A stretch of 35,097 nucleotides of DNA, from positions 1 through 35,097 of the forward strand of contig JAGVYH010000069.1 in the NCBI GenBank assembly GCA_018303325.1, written 5' to 3'. This stretch comes from Candidatus Woesearchaeota archaeon. GTDB lineage: Archaea > Nanobdellota > Nanobdellia > Woesearchaeales > DSVV01. The translations under genes were made by a program, and so were the position numbers. Positions 89-21,859 of this stretch are shown here, piece after piece. The stretch's first letter is position 1. Every line of letters begins with the position of its first letter. Below the pieces are notes generated by a model, which saw only the letters and a program-made list of their open reading frames with translations, made no database searches and had not been told where the DNA came from.

Positions 89-188
89 GACAGTGCCAAT
101 ATTCTTCTTTCCATCATATTACTACTGGGCGAGGGTATTTATTTAAAAATCTATTCTTTTTAAGCAACTACTAAGCCTGCCAGTCAGC

Positions 189-208
189 TTTGGCGAAAAC
201 CCGCCAAA
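189..208. repeat. Small hairpin near insertion-sequence end
   Basis: TTTGGCG (189-195) pairs perfectly with CGCCAAA (202-208) across a 6-base loop. It lies about 100 bases downstream of the transposase stop codon and could be a subterminal hairpin or terminator of that element. This is seen directly; the role is inferred. Confidence 0.5.
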
Positions 209-261
209 TAATACTCAGCAGAATAGCAAAGTTTATCGTTGGTTTTTGCTTCCTATTTGTA

Positions 262-313
262 TATATACTAAACGTGATTAATTTTCGAACAAATTAATCA
301 CGTTTAGTATATA
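262..313 (-). repeat. TATACTAAA-armed hairpin, copy 1 (inverted)
   Basis: A perfect 23-bp inverted repeat: 262-284 pairs with 291-313 across the 6-base loop TCGAAC. Read on the minus strand the loop is GTTCGA, matching the loop of copies 2 and 3. The outer arm TATATACTAAA is shared with the other copies; the inner stem (CGTGATTAATTT) is unique to this one. Confidence 0.85.
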
Positions 314-8250: not shown

Positions 8251-8260
8251 TTTTATATAG
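8251..8260 (-). promoter_or_regulatory. TATA box for purA-purB
   Basis: Minus-strand CTATATAAAA. Start of transcription would fall near 8227, leaving about 50 bases of leader ahead of the GAGGTG ribosome site, unlike the leaderless neighbours. Confidence 0.45.
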
Positions 8261-8389
8261 TTCCTGGGCGAAGCCACCATTCTCATAATTATTTTTTTAT
8301 TTCCTACCTGATTGGACAAGTATATGATGATTTAGTTTTTTCTGTTAGTTTAATAACATATATCTTTCTTAAAAAACTTAAATTATAAT

Positions 8390-8470
8390 CATGTAACGGG
8401 GGACTGCGTCCCACAAACGAATTGTGAGCGGAAAACAGGATTGAGAGCGAAAAAAGGTATTAAAATGATT
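8390..8470 (-). repeat. 3'-end-associated dispersed repeat, copy A
   Basis: Read on the minus strand this stretch runs CTTTTTT..CTCTCAATCCTGTTTTCCGCTC, then GTTTGTGGGACGCAGTCCCCCGT and ACATGA. It matches 21640-21718 (plus strand) at most positions and 16655-16716 more loosely. The core GGGAC-GCA-GTCCC forms a hairpin. It lies just downstream of the eamA gene and in that gene's sense orientation. The rest of the 8176-8523 gap holds the purA promoter and an AT-rich inverted pair AGTTTTTT/AAAAAACT (8334-8341, 8371-8378). Confidence 0.75.
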
Positions 8471-16583: not shown

Positions 16584-16633
16584 TATACTAAAAGTCCTTG
16601 ATTTTTGTTCGGAAATCAAGGACTTTTAGTATA
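16584..16633 (+). repeat. TATACTAAA-armed hairpin, copy 3
   Basis: A perfect 21-bp inverted repeat: 16584-16604 (TATACTAAAAGTCCTTGATTT) less its last base is readable by eye, pairing with 16613-16633 across an 8-base loop containing GTTCG. It begins 17 bases after the stop codon of the giant surface-protein gene, so it may end that transcript. Arms and loop match the copies at 262-358. Confidence 0.8.
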
Positions 16634-16654: not shown

Positions 16655-16716
16655 GATTAACTCTTGTTTCTTGCTCTCAACCCGTAACTAGGGATGGAGT
16701 CCACGGTCGTATGAAA
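16655..16716 (+). repeat. 3'-end-associated dispersed repeat, copy C (degenerate)
   Basis: GCTCTCAACCCGT, then GGGATGGAGTCC (a weakened version of the GGGACGCAGTCCC hairpin), then GTCGTATGAAA. It aligns position by position with copy B at 21640-21718 but is more diverged. It is downstream of, and sense to, the giant surface-protein gene. The rest of the 16568-16897 gap is the hairpin before it and the palindromic cluster after it. Confidence 0.6.
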
Positions 16717-16718
16717 CT

Positions 16719-16834
16719 GTTAGAAAGCTTGAAGGTCTGAAAGCTCGAAGGTGCGCTTTAGGAGTCGCACTTTCAAACTATCAAGCTTTCTAACTTTCAA
16801 GCTTCTAAATGCTGTCAAGCTTTCTAACTTTCAA
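16719..16834. repeat. Palindromic word-repeat cluster following copy C
   Basis: GTTAGAAAGCTTGA (16719-16732) is perfectly complementary to TCAAGCTTTCTAAC (16781-16794). Inside that, AAGGTGCG/CGCACTTT (16748-16755, 16766-16773) pairs again with one G-T. The 20-base word starting TCAAGCTTTCTAAC at 16781 is repeated exactly at 16815-16834. Variants of the AAGCTTGAAGG/GAAAGCTCGAAGG word fill the space between. No coding potential is seen. Confidence 0.8.
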
Positions 16835-16897
16835 ACAATCTTACCATTTCTTCATGAACGTGTCCAATTAGATAGAATATAAAAAAGAAGCAGTACA

Positions 16898-17698
16898 TTA
16901 TTTTTCTGTTCCCTTCATTGCTGTTGTTTCTGCTGCAGGTTCTTGTGTTTGTTTTTGTGTTAAATATGTTCTTTCTCTAGCTTCATATATTAATGCACTT
17001 GGCAAAGATAAAGATGTTGAAGATGAACCTCCGCAAGGATATATTCTTCTTAATCTGCTCCATTCTTCTTTTACTTCTGGAACATTTCTGAGTATACTTA
17101 AATTAGCAAGATATTTTGCATCTACCCCTTCAATTCTTCCAACTGCAACATATAATGCAAGATAAGTATTTCTTAGCAAGAAAACTGCATCCTTTGAACC
17201 TATACCATCTATCATTAATGCACTTAAGGAAACATCTATAATAGCTCTTAATTTCCCCCTACTCATATAATCTATCTTAACATCATGAATGTTTGTGTTT
17301 CTTTTTTCATTTGCAAGATCTTCTAATGTTGAACTACTTATTGCAACTGTTTTTTTCGTTCTTCCAGAATGAATTCTTAATCCAGCAAAGGATATGTTTC
17401 TCTGGATTTCATATTCAATAAAAATATTTTCTTCAGGAACATTCCATAATTTGCAGTAGTCTCTCTCCTTAGGAGCTACAGGTTTCCCATCTGTTTCCAT
17501 TATTTCATGAGCGTAGAAATCTTTGATAGCATGATATCCTTTTTCATATTCTAATCCCTGTTTATCTTTTTCTGTTAAAACATAATCATCGACTGAAGCT
17601 TTGTCAGATGCATCTGGTAAGTCTGGTGGAATAAAGCTTACACTAACTAACTTTAACTTTTTTTCTCCAATTTTAGATGTTGTATCATTGCTGCCCAT
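16898..17698 (-). CDS. Protein of unknown function
   Basis: About 266 residues from ATG 17698, which has AAGGTA seven bases upstream. A TTG nine codons further up (17725) would also keep the frame but lacks a ribosome site. I recognise no family. The middle (ENIFIEYEIQRNISFAGLRIHSGRTKKTVAISSSTLEDL) looks like a beta-rich segment followed by helices (AIIDVSLSALMIDGIGSKDAVFLLRNTYLALYVAVGRIEG). The last 35 residues are Thr/Gln/Ala-rich and probably disordered. There is no signal peptide or clear membrane helix, so it is probably cytoplasmic. The gene is isolated: its 3' end faces the surface-protein gene's 3' end across the repeat-filled gap. Confidence 0.65.
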   Translation of the reverse strand: MGSNDTTSKIGEKKLKLVSVSFIPPDLPDASDKASVDDYVLTEKDKQGLEYEKGYHAIKDFYAHEIMETDGKPVAPKERDYCKLWNVPEENIFIEYEIQRNISFAGLRIHSGRTKKTVAISSSTLEDLANEKRNTNIHDVKIDYMSRGKLRAIIDVSLSALMIDGIGSKDAVFLLRNTYLALYVAVGRIEGVDAKYLANLSILRNVPEVKEEWSRLRRIYPCGGSSSTSLSLPSALIYEARERTYLTQKQTQEPAAETTAMKGTEK

Positions 17699-17725
17699 TT
17701 TAACTACCTTTGACTTTAATGACAA

Positions 17726-17919
17726 ACAACATTATTTTCAACATTTTTTTAACAACAGGGAATTAAAAGAAGATACTATTATCTATTTCAAAATTAATAG
17801 ATATATATAGACATTCAATGTATATAAACATTTTGACTAAAAAAGAGGGGAAAAAAGGCATTTGACTAAGATTGGAATATTCAAAGTACTAATAATTAAA
17901 CATTTAAACACTTAGCTTC
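17726..17919. other. AT-rich intergenic region upstream of the unknown gene
   Basis: No gene is seen. TATA-like ATATATATAG occurs around 17801-17811, readable on either strand. If it drives the minus-strand gene it would give a leader of about 80 bases. Confidence 0.35.
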
Positions 17920-18096
17920 CTAAACCCTGCTCTTATACATATTATATCTTCCTTTTGCTTTCTGGCTTGTTCTGTCTTCAGGATATTGCTCAAGAACATC
18001 TCGCTCGTCATATCCGCATTTATTACAAACCTTAACCTTTGCGCCAAGATAATTAATAATCTTGACATCTGTTGATGAGCATTTTGGACAGCGCAT
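17920..18096 (-). CDS. Small zinc-ribbon protein
   Basis: 58 residues from ATG 18096; an in-frame GTG three codons upstream (18105) is an alternative start. Two CxxC knuckles, MRCPKCSS and VCNKCGYDER, lie about 20 residues apart and make a classic zinc ribbon like those in transcription and translation factors. The C-terminal half is basic and polar (DRTSQKAKGRYNMYKSRV), consistent with nucleic-acid binding. No further assignment is possible. It is divergent from lspA across a compact shared promoter region with 10-bp repeats. Confidence 0.65.
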   Translation of the reverse strand: MRCPKCSSTDVKIINYLGAKVKVCNKCGYDERDVLEQYPEDRTSQKAKGRYNMYKSRV

Positions 18097-18103
18097 ATTT
18101 TTC

Positions 18104-18140
18104 ACTTAATCTATATTTTCACTTAACCTAACTTAACCTA
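18104..18140. promoter_or_regulatory. 10-bp direct repeats in a divergent promoter region
   Basis: ACTTAACCTA occurs twice in exact tandem (18121-18130, 18131-18140). A third copy with one mismatch, ACTTAATCTA, is at 18104-18113. The 10-bp period places the copies on one face of the helix, as expected of an operator for a repressor or activator. It lies between the zinc-ribbon start and the lspA TATA box. Confidence 0.45.
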
Positions 18141-18166
18141 TACTCTAAATAAGAGATTAGATAATT

Positions 18167-18178
18167 AAATATATAAAT
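18167..18178 (+). promoter_or_regulatory. TATA box for lspA
   Basis: AAATATATAAAT, centred about 28 bases ahead of ATG 18201, supports that start over the TTG at 18180. The sequence is near-palindromic and could also serve the divergent zinc-ribbon gene. Confidence 0.5.
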
Positions 18179-18200
18179 CTTGGGATTAACAAGAGAAATA

Positions 18201-18665
18201 ATGGACCAAGAATACAAAAATTACAAATATGTGTTAATCCTTCCCTTGATAGTCGTATTATTGGATCAGTTAACCAAATTCTTAGTAACATCATACATGC
18301 AGCTAAATCAATCAATCCCTATAATAAATAACATCTTTCATTTAACATACATTACAAACACAGGTACATTGTTTGGTTCTTTCAAAGACAATAATATGCT
18401 ATTTATCTGGCTTTCATTAATAATAATAGGCGCATTGCTGTATTTATATGATAAATTTGACAAAACAGAGCAAATCCTATTTTCTTTGGTAATCGGCGCA
18501 GCCATTGGCAACCTAATAGATAGGGTTGTTTATGGCTATGTAATAGACTTTCTTGATTTTAGAATATGGCCAGTGTTTAATATAGCTGATAGTGTGATAA
18601 GTGTAAGTACTATTGTTCTATTAATATACTTACTAAAAAGGGATTTCTTTAACAAACATCAATAA
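18201..18665 (+). CDS. lspA: Lipoprotein signal peptidase (signal peptidase II)
   Basis: 154 residues, the typical length. This aspartyl protease of the membrane removes signal peptides ahead of the lipid-modified Cys of lipoproteins. Four membrane segments are visible (about 10-30, 64-83, 92-110, 126-146). Family motifs: DQLTK (22-26), NTGTLFG (53-59, the NxGxxFG region), GNLIDR with catalytic Asp 107, and FNIADS with catalytic Asp 130. ATG 18201 is chosen over the TTG 21 bases upstream because of the TATA spacing. LspA is standard in bacteria and not part of the classical archaeal export set, so transfer is likely. No protein in this window shows a lipobox Cys to serve as an obvious substrate. 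Confidence 0.93.
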   Translation: MDQEYKNYKYVLILPLIVVLLDQLTKFLVTSYMQLNQSIPIINNIFHLTYITNTGTLFGSFKDNNMLFIWLSLIIIGALLYLYDKFDKTEQILFSLVIGAAIGNLIDRVVYGYVIDFLDFRIWPVFNIADSVISVSTIVLLIYLLKRDFFNKHQ

Positions 18666-18722
18666 GCTGTTAAAAGCAAAGAATTAAGGGTTTAACAGAT
18701 TTATAGCATTTTCAAGACTCAA

Positions 18723-18770
18723 TAGTGATAAAAACCGAAATATTTAAATATACCAACAGATTTATCACTA
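18723..18770 (+). promoter_or_regulatory. Promoter framed by a perfect 10-bp inverted repeat
   Basis: TATA box TATTTAAATA (18741-18750) is preceded by CCGAAA as a BRE-like element. TAGTGATAAA (18723-18732) and TTTATCACTA (18761-18770) are exact reverse complements flanking the box symmetrically. Transcription would start near 18775, giving a ~60-base leader with GGAGG ahead of ATG 18838. The inverted repeat could be an operator that blocks TBP/TFB access. Confidence 0.6.
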
Positions 18771-18837
18771 AAAAAGAGTGTATTTTTGGAAGTTAATAAG
18801 AATTTGTATTCAAATTACAGCAAATGGAGGCATTAGA

Positions 18838-20400
18838 ATGATAAAACAAATATTAAACACATTAAATGATATTGTTAGTAGAAATATTAAGAAATATGCA
18901 GTTGTTGTTTTAGCGCTGTTATTGTTCGCCATAACTATCAATGCAGCAATGGCATTGCCAGAGATTAACCCTAATTATAAAGACTTTTCTTACAATACTT
19001 ATAACACAGCAAACATTGCTAAATTAGATTCATTTAACACTAACCCATCAACCTCAAATCAGTTAATTAACAAAAACATTCCTAATGTTTATGCTTCTTC
19101 AAAAGATATTGGTAAAGATGCATTAATTGGAAAATTTGTAGATGTTCCTGAAGAAAACGGAAATGTCCAGCCTCATCCAAAGAAGAACAAGCTTGAAGAA
19201 TATGAGAATTCCTTTAAAACTTTGGAAAATAGATTACAAACTATTCAGAAAGAATTCTCCTCATTAAACAAGCCACATTATACACCTAAAGAATATTGTA
19301 GCAGATTGTATAAAGAGAATTTTAAGGTGTTGAAAGGAGAAGTATTATTTTTAATGCATAATGCAGATGAATTAAATAAAAATGTTCAAGCAGCTAAAGC
19401 AGATTCAGTTAAGGAAGTACAATCAAAGACAAACTTGCTTATTAGCGTTAATACCTTAAAAACAAATAGTATTTCATTATTAAATGAAGTTAGTGCAGAA
19501 ATCAATGAATTAACACAGTTAACTAAACAATGTAATTCTGTTGACAATAATGGTGATAATGGTAATGACAATGGTAATGATAATGGTAATGACAACGGAA
19601 ATAACGGCGGAAATGATAACGAAAACGGTAATGGAGACAATGGTAACGGCGCAAATGACAATGGAAATGATAATGGAGATAATGATAACGGAAATGGTAA
19701 TGGTGATAACGGCGCTAATGACGACCCTGTTGTCCCTCCTGTAGTTCCTCCAGTCGTAGACCAGAACGCAGAAGACCAGAAGCTATTAAATGAATATGAA
19801 GACAAGTATGATGAGTACAAGAAGGAATACACTGATTTAAAGAGTGACCTTGATGATGCAAATGATAAAAATGACGAAGATGAAGTTGAAGATATAACTG
19901 ATGACCTAAAAGCTCTTTACAAAGATGTAGACAAGCTTTATGATGATGTTTCAAAATTCAAAGGAACAGTTGTTGACAGTTTAGTTGACGACGTAGATGA
20001 ATTAAAAGTTGATATCAAGGAATTAAAACAAAAAATCAACTGTGTGAAAAACGGCGAGTCACAAACATGCTACAAAGATGAATCTCAAGAAGATATTGTA
20101 GACAACAATGAAAACATTATTGATGAAGGCTATGATTATGTTGACAACACAATTAATAATAACAAAGCAGCTAAAAGCAACAAAAACACAGAAGAAGTTG
20201 AGTTAATAACTTCAAATACATTGCCTTTGCCGCAGACACAAGCAACACAATCTAATGTTAACGCAGATAGTACACAGACAAAACAGATTAAAACATCATT
20301 TAGCCAGTCAAGCACATACATGGCATTGTTAATCAGCGGATTTGTACTTTTGGTTGGATTGATAGTGTTCCTTACTGCTGTGTTGATAAGGATGTTTTAA
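18838..20400 (+). CDS. Secreted/anchored surface protein with Asn-Gly-Asp repeat linker
   Basis: 520 residues from ATG 18838, which has GGAGG 7 bases upstream; an in-frame GTG at 18778 lacks this. Signal-like helix at about 20-38 (YAVVVLALLLFAITINAAMA), with likely cleavage after AMA. A helical region with KLEEYENSFKTLENRLQTI and a Cys pair follows. A low-complexity tract of Asn, Gly and Asp (about 235-298) leads into DDPVVPPVVPPVV. A second acidic helical region (about 310-400) comes next, then a polar stalk and a C-terminal membrane helix (about 491-519) ending RMF. The architecture suggests an extracellular stalk tethered at its C-terminus, with coiled coils either side of a flexible linker. 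Family unknown. Its strong, apparently regulated promoter suggests abundance. Confidence 0.8.
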   Translation: MIKQILNTLNDIVSRNIKKYAVVVLALLLFAITINAAMALPEINPNYKDFSYNTYNTANIAKLDSFNTNPSTSNQLINKNIPNVYASSKDIGKDALIGKFVDVPEENGNVQPHPKKNKLEEYENSFKTLENRLQTIQKEFSSLNKPHYTPKEYCSRLYKENFKVLKGEVLFLMHNADELNKNVQAAKADSVKEVQSKTNLLISVNTLKTNSISLLNEVSAEINELTQLTKQCNSVDNNGDNGNDNGNDNGNDNGNNGGNDNENGNGDNGNGANDNGNDNGDNDNGNGNGDNGANDDPVVPPVVPPVVDQNAEDQKLLNEYEDKYDEYKKEYTDLKSDLDDANDKNDEDEVEDITDDLKALYKDVDKLYDDVSKFKGTVVDSLVDDVDELKVDIKELKQKINCVKNGESQTCYKDESQEDIVDNNENIIDEGYDYVDNTINNNKAAKSNKNTEEVELITSNTLPLPQTQATQSNVNADSTQTKQIKTSFSQSSTYMALLISGFVLLVGLIVFLTAVLIRMF

Positions 20401-20513
20401 TTTTGTATTTATTATTTTATTTTGTTTTCTTATTCATTTATTGATTGTTTGTTTTTATTGATTGTTTCAGTTTATTACTATTTTTTCGTTTTTTTTCTCA
20501 ACTTTTTTATACT
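20401..20513 (+). terminator. T-rich transcription terminator region
   Basis: A dense series of T runs, including TTTTTTCG and TTTTTTTTCTC near 20483-20500, directly follows the surface-protein stop codon. Archaeal RNA polymerase terminates at U-rich tracts without needing a hairpin. Confidence 0.55.
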
Positions 20514-20534
20514 ACCTTGTTTTCTTTATAGGTT

Positions 20535-21590
20535 ATGGATGAACTAATAAAATTAGATGGTTCTCACAATGAAGGTGGCGGCCAAATCTTAAGAACAGCT
20601 TTAGCGCTTTCAATTCTGACGCAAACCCCTTTCACAATAGATAAAATACGCCAAAATAGACCACAGCCAGGATTAAAAGCGCAGCATTTACACTGCATAA
20701 AAGCGCTGTTAGAACTGACAAATAATAAAGCAAAGGTAATCGGCGCAGAGCTTGGCTCAACCAAACTTGACTTTTTTCCTGCTGAAATCGTTAAATCAAA
20801 ATTAGATATAGATATTGGCACAGCAGGTTCTATTACATTACTATTGCAATCTTTGCTGCCCTGCCTTGTTCTTAGACATAAAAGAACACATTTAACTATA
20901 ACTGGGGGAACAGACACTAAATGGTCGCCGTTATTTGATTATCTAAAAGAGGTTATTATCCCGCAGTTTAGCCGATATGCAAAGATTGAATTAAATCTTT
21001 TAAAGCGCGGTTTTTATCCAAAAGGCAATGGTAAAGTTGAAATAAAAATTAATCCTTACAAGCTTGAAAAATTTCAAGAAGTAAATCTGACTGAGCAGGG
21101 TGAGCTGATTCATATATGTGGAAGAAGCTTTTCTTCAAAAGAATTAATGAATGCTAAGGTTGCAGAACGGCAGGCAGACAGCGCAAAAAAATATTTATTA
21201 GAAAAATTAAACGGATTTTTTCATATTAATATTAATGCAGAATATAATGACACATTATCAATAGGCACATGCATAACACTCTGGGCAATTTTTAAGGATA
21301 AAGCTGACAATATAATACGGCTTGGAAGCGATGCATTAGGAGAAAAAGGAACATCAAGTGAAGAAGTTGGCAAAGAAGCAGCTCAAAAATTAGTTAATGA
21401 AATAAACTCAAAAGCGCCTGTTGATGTTCATTTGGCAGACAATCTTATTCCTGTGTTAGGTATTGTCGGCGGAAAAATAAAAGTAAGTGAAATAAGCAAT
21501 CACACTTTAACAAATATTTATACAACTGAACTGTTCATAGAGAAAAAGTTTAATGTAGACAAAGAGAATAGGATAATATCTGTGGATTAA
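20535..21590 (+). CDS. rtcA: RNA 3'-terminal phosphate cyclase
   Basis: 351 residues, standard length. It converts RNA 3'-phosphates to 2',3'-cyclic phosphates using ATP via a covalent enzyme-AMP intermediate. The N-terminal signature DGSHNEGGGQILRTALALS (residues 8-26) is diagnostic. IRQNRPQPGLKAQHLHCIKAL and DIGTAGSITLLLQSLLP follow in family order. The C-terminal region contains DVHLADNLIPVLGIVGG, and NHTLTNIYTTELF near the end is typical of archaeal members. A TATA-like TTTTTTATAC (about 20506-20515) points to a leaderless start at ATG 20535. Its likely partner in RNA end metabolism, ThpR, is elsewhere in the window; no RtcB is seen. Confidence 0.95.
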   Translation: MDELIKLDGSHNEGGGQILRTALALSILTQTPFTIDKIRQNRPQPGLKAQHLHCIKALLELTNNKAKVIGAELGSTKLDFFPAEIVKSKLDIDIGTAGSITLLLQSLLPCLVLRHKRTHLTITGGTDTKWSPLFDYLKEVIIPQFSRYAKIELNLLKRGFYPKGNGKVEIKINPYKLEKFQEVNLTEQGELIHICGRSFSSKELMNAKVAERQADSAKKYLLEKLNGFFHININAEYNDTLSIGTCITLWAIFKDKADNIIRLGSDALGEKGTSSEEVGKEAAQKLVNEINSKAPVDVHLADNLIPVLGIVGGKIKVSEISNHTLTNIYTTELFIEKKFNVDKENRIISVD

Positions 21591-21639
21591 TTAATATATT
21601 ATGTAGAAAATAAAGTATAGAAGAATCATATTTGTTCAG

Positions 21640-21718
21640 ATGATTTATATCTTTTTTACTCACAATCCTATTTTCCGCTCTCAACCTGTTTGTGGGACGC
21701 AGTCCCCCGTCATATGAA
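21640..21718 (+). repeat. 3'-end-associated dispersed repeat, copy B
   Basis: CTTTTTTACTCACAATCCTATTTTCCGCTC then CAACCTGTTTGTGGGACGCAGTCCCCCGTCATATGAAAA is described here in pieces; the two segments are contiguous. It is about 85% identical by eye to copy A (minus strand 8390-8470) over about 57 bases. The hairpin GGGAC-GCA-GTCCC is perfectly conserved between A and B. It lies downstream of, and sense to, rtcA. It is part of the 21591-21859 gap, whose remainder is the palindromic cluster. Confidence 0.75.
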
Positions 21719-21728
21719 AAATTAAAAT

Positions 21729-21802
21729 GGGTGCTAGTGGCTAGGTGCTAGTTACGATGAATTATCGCCACCAGCACCTAGCACCCAGAACCTAGCACCT
21801 AG
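21729..21802. repeat. Palindromic word-repeat cluster following copy B
   Basis: GGGTGCTA (21729-21736) pairs with TAGCACCC (21779-21786). CTAGGTGCTAG (21741-21751) pairs perfectly with CTAGCACCTAG (21792-21802). A small hairpin CGAT-GAATT-ATCG (21755-21767) sits in the centre. The word GCTAGGTGCTAG and its complement occur several times, allowing alternative folds. It is non-coding and begins about 10 bases after the repeat, as at copy C. Confidence 0.8.
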
Positions 21803-21859
21803 TTTTCATAGTGAACTTTGTTGGACATGCCAGGAACGACTAAAAACAAATACAATTCC

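Follow-up and report, generated by a model that had tools for sequence, protein, structure and literature searches.

The 35,097-nt window analyzed here is contig JAGVYH010000069.1 (assembly GCA_018303325.1) of a Candidatus Woesearchaeota archaeon, and it holds three copies (A, B and C) of a dispersed repeat whose conserved hairpin head is followed, in copies B and C, by a palindrome built of repeated words. A first-pass annotation described these as composite elements with a conserved head and a variable self-complementary tail, and proposed that the tail is generated locally at each head. The composite architecture is supported, and heads and word palindromes were both recovered at the annotated positions in copies B and C. 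Comparison of two related genomes indicates that head and tail can be separated and are exchanged between loci as modules, and that the head does not make its own tail.

The genome of the window (G000) is a 1.97-Mb metagenome-assembled genome (MAG) in which the window is contig C10. It was compared at orthologous loci with that of a sister species of the same genus (G001, also a MAG), using sampled stretches that cover 735 of 1970 kb of G000 and 601 of ~1400 kb of G001 and are cited below by L-number, with positions as stretch:position. In the genome collection the exact head pattern has a sole match, the Candidatus Woesearchaeota groundwater MAG JACQSP01, which we take to be G001. Heads (left ends, LE), right ends (RE) and cores were identified with nhmmer or hidden Markov models (HMMs) and are scored in bits, folding was computed with RNA parameters against dinucleotide shuffles, and the family names F1 to F8 and the class borders were set by this analysis.

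Core replacement at orthologous loci

Every head was found to be the left end of a longer element, hereafter the frame, in which one of at least eight core families lies between TCATGAA and TTCATGA: F1 (AAGCTTGAAAG), F2 (GGTGCTAG), F3 (GATGGTTT), F4 (GTCGTTT), F5 (TTCGTTC), F6 (GACGTTA), F7 (AT-rich) and F8 (GGTAAGA). Most frames hold a single core with no remnants of an older one, cores are present in both orientations within frames, and the family counts differ between the G000 and G001 samples (F4, 2 vs 19; F8, 0 vs 24; F3, 14 vs 3; F2, 14 vs 6). The words of copies B and C are mutually unrelated, as the annotation had noted, yet they are not private to their sites, since each family recurs at many loci.

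Fourteen loci, defined by flank matches on both sides, carry a frame in both species, and the core family differs at 11 of them. F1 is matched by an AT-rich core at L091/L123 and L098/L120 and by F3 at L092/L080; F4 is matched by an AT-rich core at L094/L078, L105:5430/L083, L155/L128, L170/window copy A, L174/L119 and L108/L085, and by F3 at L105:4883/L083; F8 is matched by F3 at L105:6511/L083, some of the orthologous cores, AT-rich ones and the L108 core among them, being assigned by eye where the models made no call. The core is unchanged at the remaining three loci (F5/F5 with an inverted centre, F1/F1 and none/none). Flanks of the core-swapped frames are mostly 80-95% identical, and similarity is higher between orthologous heads than between random ones (0.83 vs 0.76; 0 of 500 resamplings as high). 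At two loci the target-site duplication (TSD) is also common to both species: L083:13793 and L105:5430 share ATTAAATC but combine an AT-rich core with right-end type RE3 and F4 with RE1, respectively, and L119:14895 and L174:4116 share the CTTAATTT site with different cores. The same target duplication with different cores indicates that, at these two loci, one ancestral insertion changed its core. Frame ends therefore stay at the locus while core families change, in agreement with the annotation's expectation that a comparison of strains might reveal a fixed head and a rapidly changing palindrome.

Independent transposition of whole elements, with no exchange, to intergenic hot spots used in both species is a very improbable account of these differences. 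Frames are enriched in convergent spacers (see below), so that sites could be reused, and copies B and C are absent from their orthologous loci, where the flanking genes were located in G001 but no element; the orthologous frames, however, are more similar in head and upstream sequence than chance would allow, head shows no correlation with core across the whole collection, and an identical TSD together with orthologous heads excludes hot-spot reuse at the two loci above.

The borders of the exchanged segment were mapped column by column along the alignment, as the mutual information with core family, using permutations within species. On the left side, core family is independent of the head columns and of the 50 nt upstream (mean z about 0), and z reaches 4-7 only in the last ~7 nt of the head (TCATGAA); each species alone gives the same pattern with smaller z. 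On the right side of RE1 frames, z stays mostly at 3-12 as far as the bases preceding GTGAAC and is 0 from there on; at some loci the border is displaced outward, to CCAGGAAC. The linkage of core and frame thus ends abruptly at the foot of the cassette stem, and we therefore conclude that cassettes reassort with frames at this point, the cores behaving as cassettes exchanged at the hairpin base. An F4-RE3 fusion (TTACTCGCTCTTGGCTTCGCCC) occurs at three loci with different outer flanks; one of the three is the copy A orthologue, in which the frame's own outer flank was kept and part of RE2/RE3 was replaced along with the core.

We consider it probable that the repeats are frames of miniature inverted-repeat transposable elements (MITEs) whose central hairpin cassette is swapped between dispersed copies, ectopic gene conversion or template switching being the most likely routes. 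The centre of a frame would then be a hairpin cassette between TCATGAA and TTCATGA, drawn from the at least eight palindrome families and moved by non-reciprocal ectopic conversion between frames: a broken or stalled hairpin in one frame might be repaired by copying the cassette of another, for which the conserved arms (CCGTC, GTGAAC and CCAGGAAC) could serve as short homologies. The frames themselves may have been spread by a putative DDE-type transposase, and the word palindromes would be older or independent palindromic elements able to insert without a frame.

Several points weigh against this account. Products of exchange were seen, the mechanism itself was not observed, and the exchange is inferred from two partially sampled genomes, both of them MAGs; head homology averages ~75% over 42 bp, which is short for ordinary recombination; the right breakpoint varies, as RE1 accompanies word cores in nearly all cases (37:2); and a transposase with the matching terminal inverted repeats (TIRs) was not found in the sampled stretches. 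Numerous repeats in two MAGs could also suggest that cores were joined to the wrong flanks during metagenome assembly. Such an artefact is scarcely credible in view of the synteny of both frame flanks between two separate MAGs, the divergence of copies within a genome (heads ~75% identical) and the presence of an insertion in elp3, described below, in both genomes. By analogy with integrons, a dedicated archaeal system might exist in which a recombinase or structure-specific nuclease would recognise the base of the folded central hairpin and swap in palindromes from the genomic repertoire; we regard this as unlikely.

Origin of the palindromes and cores outside frames

In copy C the arms formed by GTTAGAAAGCTTGA at 16719-16732 pair with 16781-16794 around a small central hairpin (GTGCG/CGCAC, 16751-16770), and the right arm has an additional direct copy at 16812-16834, a feature common to other F1 members (e.g. 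L113 and L119). In copy B, GGTGCTAG words at 21729-21802 surround a central TTACGATGAATTATCGC. Predicted folding energies are -45.7 kcal/mol for the copy C core (shuffled, -28.3) and -37.2 kcal/mol for the copy B core (shuffled, -19.7), with z values in Table 1, and inverted repeats number 56 in a 422-kb sample and none in 215 kb of shuffled DNA.

Snap-back synthesis or template switching at each head would be expected to leave palindromes that are perfect or nearly so and whose words differ from head to head, as is observed. However, complementarity of the arms within a copy did not exceed that between copies in any of six families (permutation p 0.10 to 1.0), and left arms are closer to the left arms of other copies than to the reverse complement of their own right arm. 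The tails are therefore not made locally and represent inherited families; the arms are family-specific, the same families, with the same asymmetric arms, occupy many unlinked loci, and the local synthesis proposed by the annotation is accordingly very unlikely. One orthologous pair speaks in its favor by showing that arms do recombine within a hairpin: L094:9118 and L078:12579 have flanks >90% identical, yet the central part of their F5 core has opposite orientations in the two species, the outcome that recombination between the arms of a hairpin would produce.

The association of head and palindrome is also incomplete from both sides. Heads without a palindrome occur in both species (L107:2087 and L084:8738), and many core matches lie away from any head, at gene ends and inside elp3, so that both observations named in the annotation as counting against its reading were made in part. 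In elp3, the clearest headless case, an F1 palindrome stands in frame in both species (L075:4740-4822 and L110:8898-8980), adding ~34 residues to the Fe-S loop between CPH and CIFCPGG that are present neither in seven relatives nor in solved Elp3 structures. This is the one case of in-frame insertion into a gene; nearly all copies are intergenic. The exact F2 and F4 word patterns were found in none of 278 other genomes of the phylum (G001 being outside that draw), and headless F1-like palindromes are present in one other genus (G008).

These headless copies bring forward the main rival of cassette exchange, in which the cores are mobile palindromic elements that insert into the loop of a frame or of another hairpin, the older core being subsequently lost. 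In L166 an F4 core is nested in P2, a hairpin element of another kind, with a TTTGTTC direct repeat at the site, which G000 has in empty form; F8 is located within F3-type arms; and the two orientations of cores within frames fit this account, as do the headless cores at gene ends and in elp3. On the other hand, headless cores lack the TCATGAA edges and no clean target duplication was seen around them, most frames show one core and no remnant of an old one, and the replacement in the copy A orthologue took in part of RE2/RE3 as well as the core. Insertion is hence a possible but doubtful explanation of the core differences. Nested cores were also observed at L100:13548, L105:9568 and L091:7398, where F4 palindromes lie within another word family (TGTCAGTTGTCAG / CTGACAACTGACA).

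The frame as a MITE-like element

The frame is a non-autonomous, MITE-like element with the head as its left end. It consists, in order, of a TIR (GTATTTGTTTAG), an AT-rich stretch, the left hairpin, the core, the right hairpin and a second TIR (CTAAACAAATAC). The 12-bp TIRs GTATTTGTTTAG / CTAAACAAATAC surround 36 of 156 heads when up to 2 mismatches are allowed, and of 44 exact TIRs, 35 are no more than 400 bp away from frame ends. Over the 36 copies an 8-bp target duplication is evident (4.78 of 8 matches vs 3.18 expected, z 7.3), the only peak among the lengths examined (z at most 2.9 at 4-7 and 9-12 bp), with a match of at least 7 of 8 in 11 of the 36 copies (expected about 1%). Elements with both TIRs are mostly 170-270 bp, short and non-coding, and three types of right end were distinguished, RE1 (GTGAACNNGTTGGACATGCCAGGAACG), RE2 (GAACGTGTCCAATCAGGTAAG) and RE3, an inverted relative of the head. 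The 156 LE copies comprise 93 full heads in the G000 sample and 63 in that of G001; the largest contigs, picked by size, hold 33 heads in 312 kb (~10 per 100 kb), which suggests ~200 heads per genome. Empty orthologous sites are common between the two species. The features of the three window copies are collected in Table 1.

Table 1. Coordinates of the repeat copies in the window
Feature	Position	Strand	Evidence
Copy C head (LE), GGGATGGAGTCC hairpin and TATGAA edge	16673..16715	+	nhmmer LE model, 32 bits
Copy C core, F1 word palindrome (AAGCTTGAAAG words)	16716..16848	+	F1 HMM 16719-16802, 75.8 bits; fold z -4.9; repeats
Copy C right end, RE2 (TTCATGAACGTGTCCAATTAGATAG)	16849..16885	+	nhmmer RE2, 36.6 bits
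Copy B left TIR ATATTTGTTCAG (consensus GTATTTGTTTAG)	21628..21639	+	TIR scan; 8-bp target duplication over 36 copies, z 7.3
Copy B head (LE), GGGACGCAGTCCC hairpin	21677..21718	+	nhmmer LE, 46.5 bits; stem covariation
Copy B core, F2 word palindrome (GGTGCTAG words, centre TTACGATGAATTATCGC)	21719..21808	+	F2 HMM 21728-21804, 75.8 bits; fold z -6.1
Copy B right end, RE1 (GTGAACTTTGTTGGACATGCCAGGAACG)	21809..21839	+	nhmmer RE1, 36.0 bits
Copy B right TIR AAAAACAAATAC	21842..21853	+	TIR scan
Copy A head (LE)	8389..8429	-	orthologous frame L170:11194 (sister species) has F4 core, window has AT-rich core
Copy A core, AT-rich (F7b-like), without significant fold	8331..8388	-	fold z -0.5
Copy A right ends, RE2 (8294-8330) then RE3 (8258-8286)	8258..8330	-	nhmmer RE2 40.3, RE3 28.6 bits

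Frames lie mostly downstream of genes. By rough open reading frame (ORF) calls, spacers between convergent genes are enriched for frames (49/127 vs 108/631 spacers) and divergent spacers are avoided, a preference that fits tolerance downstream of genes. Together with the covariation of the head stem (AC/GT 115, GC/GC 28; Fisher p 1e-26), the convergent enrichment might indicate that the structures are selected as bidirectional terminators or RNA hairpins, in which case core change would be tolerated as long as hairpin strength is preserved. We hold this to be quite improbable, given that frames in tandem spacers show no orientation preference (33:33), that AT-rich cores such as that of copy A have no significant fold, and that such selection accounts for tolerance of a new core and not for its movement.

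No TIR pair surrounding an ORF, transposase ORFs included, was found in the sample, and neither genome contains an IS1595 or ISL3 transposase. Mobilization by a Y1/IS200-type enzyme was considered and rejected, as the Y1_Tnp match at G000:C5 has no LE or RE matches at its flanks. A remnant of a Y1 (IS200-like) transposase gene, broken by nested hairpin elements, was observed in L041 (G000:C77). Rfam gave no match above the gathering score, only sub-threshold chance matches, and a viral origin was discarded after no exact head or F1 match was found among viral contigs. At L091:7-138 and L098:1382-1513 the TIR GTATTTGTTTAG encloses a different interior (GGTGACAGGGGGACTTGCCCC..), possibly representing a sister MITE family.

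Related systems and further hairpin elements

Prokaryotic MITEs and Rickettsia palindromic elements have been reviewed (PMC10969869). Like prokaryotic MITEs, the frames are short, non-coding, multi-copy and intergenic, with TIRs and target-site duplications; unlike them, they do not owe a fixed interior to descent from a single autonomous element, interchangeable hairpin cassettes being recombined with the ends, and no partner transposase was found in the sampled stretches or by the IS1595 and ISL3 searches. The Rickettsia elements (Ogata et al. 2000, 2002, cited in PMC10969869) resemble the cores in being ~100-150 bp long and in forming several families, and one core stands in frame in elp3; they differ in that the host here is an archaeon, nearly all copies are intergenic with one in-frame case, and most are held in a TIR frame. 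The GC clusters of yeast mitochondria merge and shuffle (PMC4478555) and are likewise dispersed hairpins, and one homologous site may hold a stand-alone form in one strain and a merged form in another; the double-hairpin elements of Allomyces (Paquin et al. 2000, as cited in PMC7218506) are also dispersed hairpins that merge and shuffle. In contrast to what these accounts describe, the present elements belong to an archaeal cellular chromosome and have a frame with an 8-bp TSD, defined cassette borders and word-repeat core families. With the repetitive extragenic palindromes and mosaic elements (REP/BIME) associated with Y1 (RAYT) transposases (PMC2817692) they share two inverted hairpin units, a variable centre, >100 copies and intergenic location, but TIRs and an 8-bp TSD replace hairpin-guided single-strand transposition, and the Y1 transposase of the genome has no adjoining frame ends. 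In a partial coverage of the literature, no account of an archaeal MITE with exchangeable hairpin cassettes was found.

Short prokaryotic palindromic repeats are usually regarded as static relics. Here, two related genomes display, locus by locus, MITE ends that were kept and a hairpin core that was replaced, with borders mapped nearly to the base, so that the spread and diversification of palindromes become directly testable. Our results suggest that the bases of hairpins can serve archaeal chromosomes as points of exchange.

Two further hairpin elements were noted in the same DNA. P2, a second dispersed element without an Rfam match, is present at window positions 163-250, L083:14238, L166:4828 and in ~15 other copies; its inner part is conserved (TTTGTCAGCTTTG..GCGAAAAC..GTTTTCGCCAAAGCTGAC), and its terminal stems vary between copies and are still complementary (GTATGTATTAAGCCTGCC / GGCAGGCTTAATACATAC, GCAACTACTAAG.., GTAAGTAATAAGTCTGCC..). 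Another hairpin family, at window positions 262-313, 315-351 and 16584-16633 and at many other loci, has conserved TATATACTAAAAG ends, a TTCG-type centre and a variable stem that is perfectly complementary within each copy.

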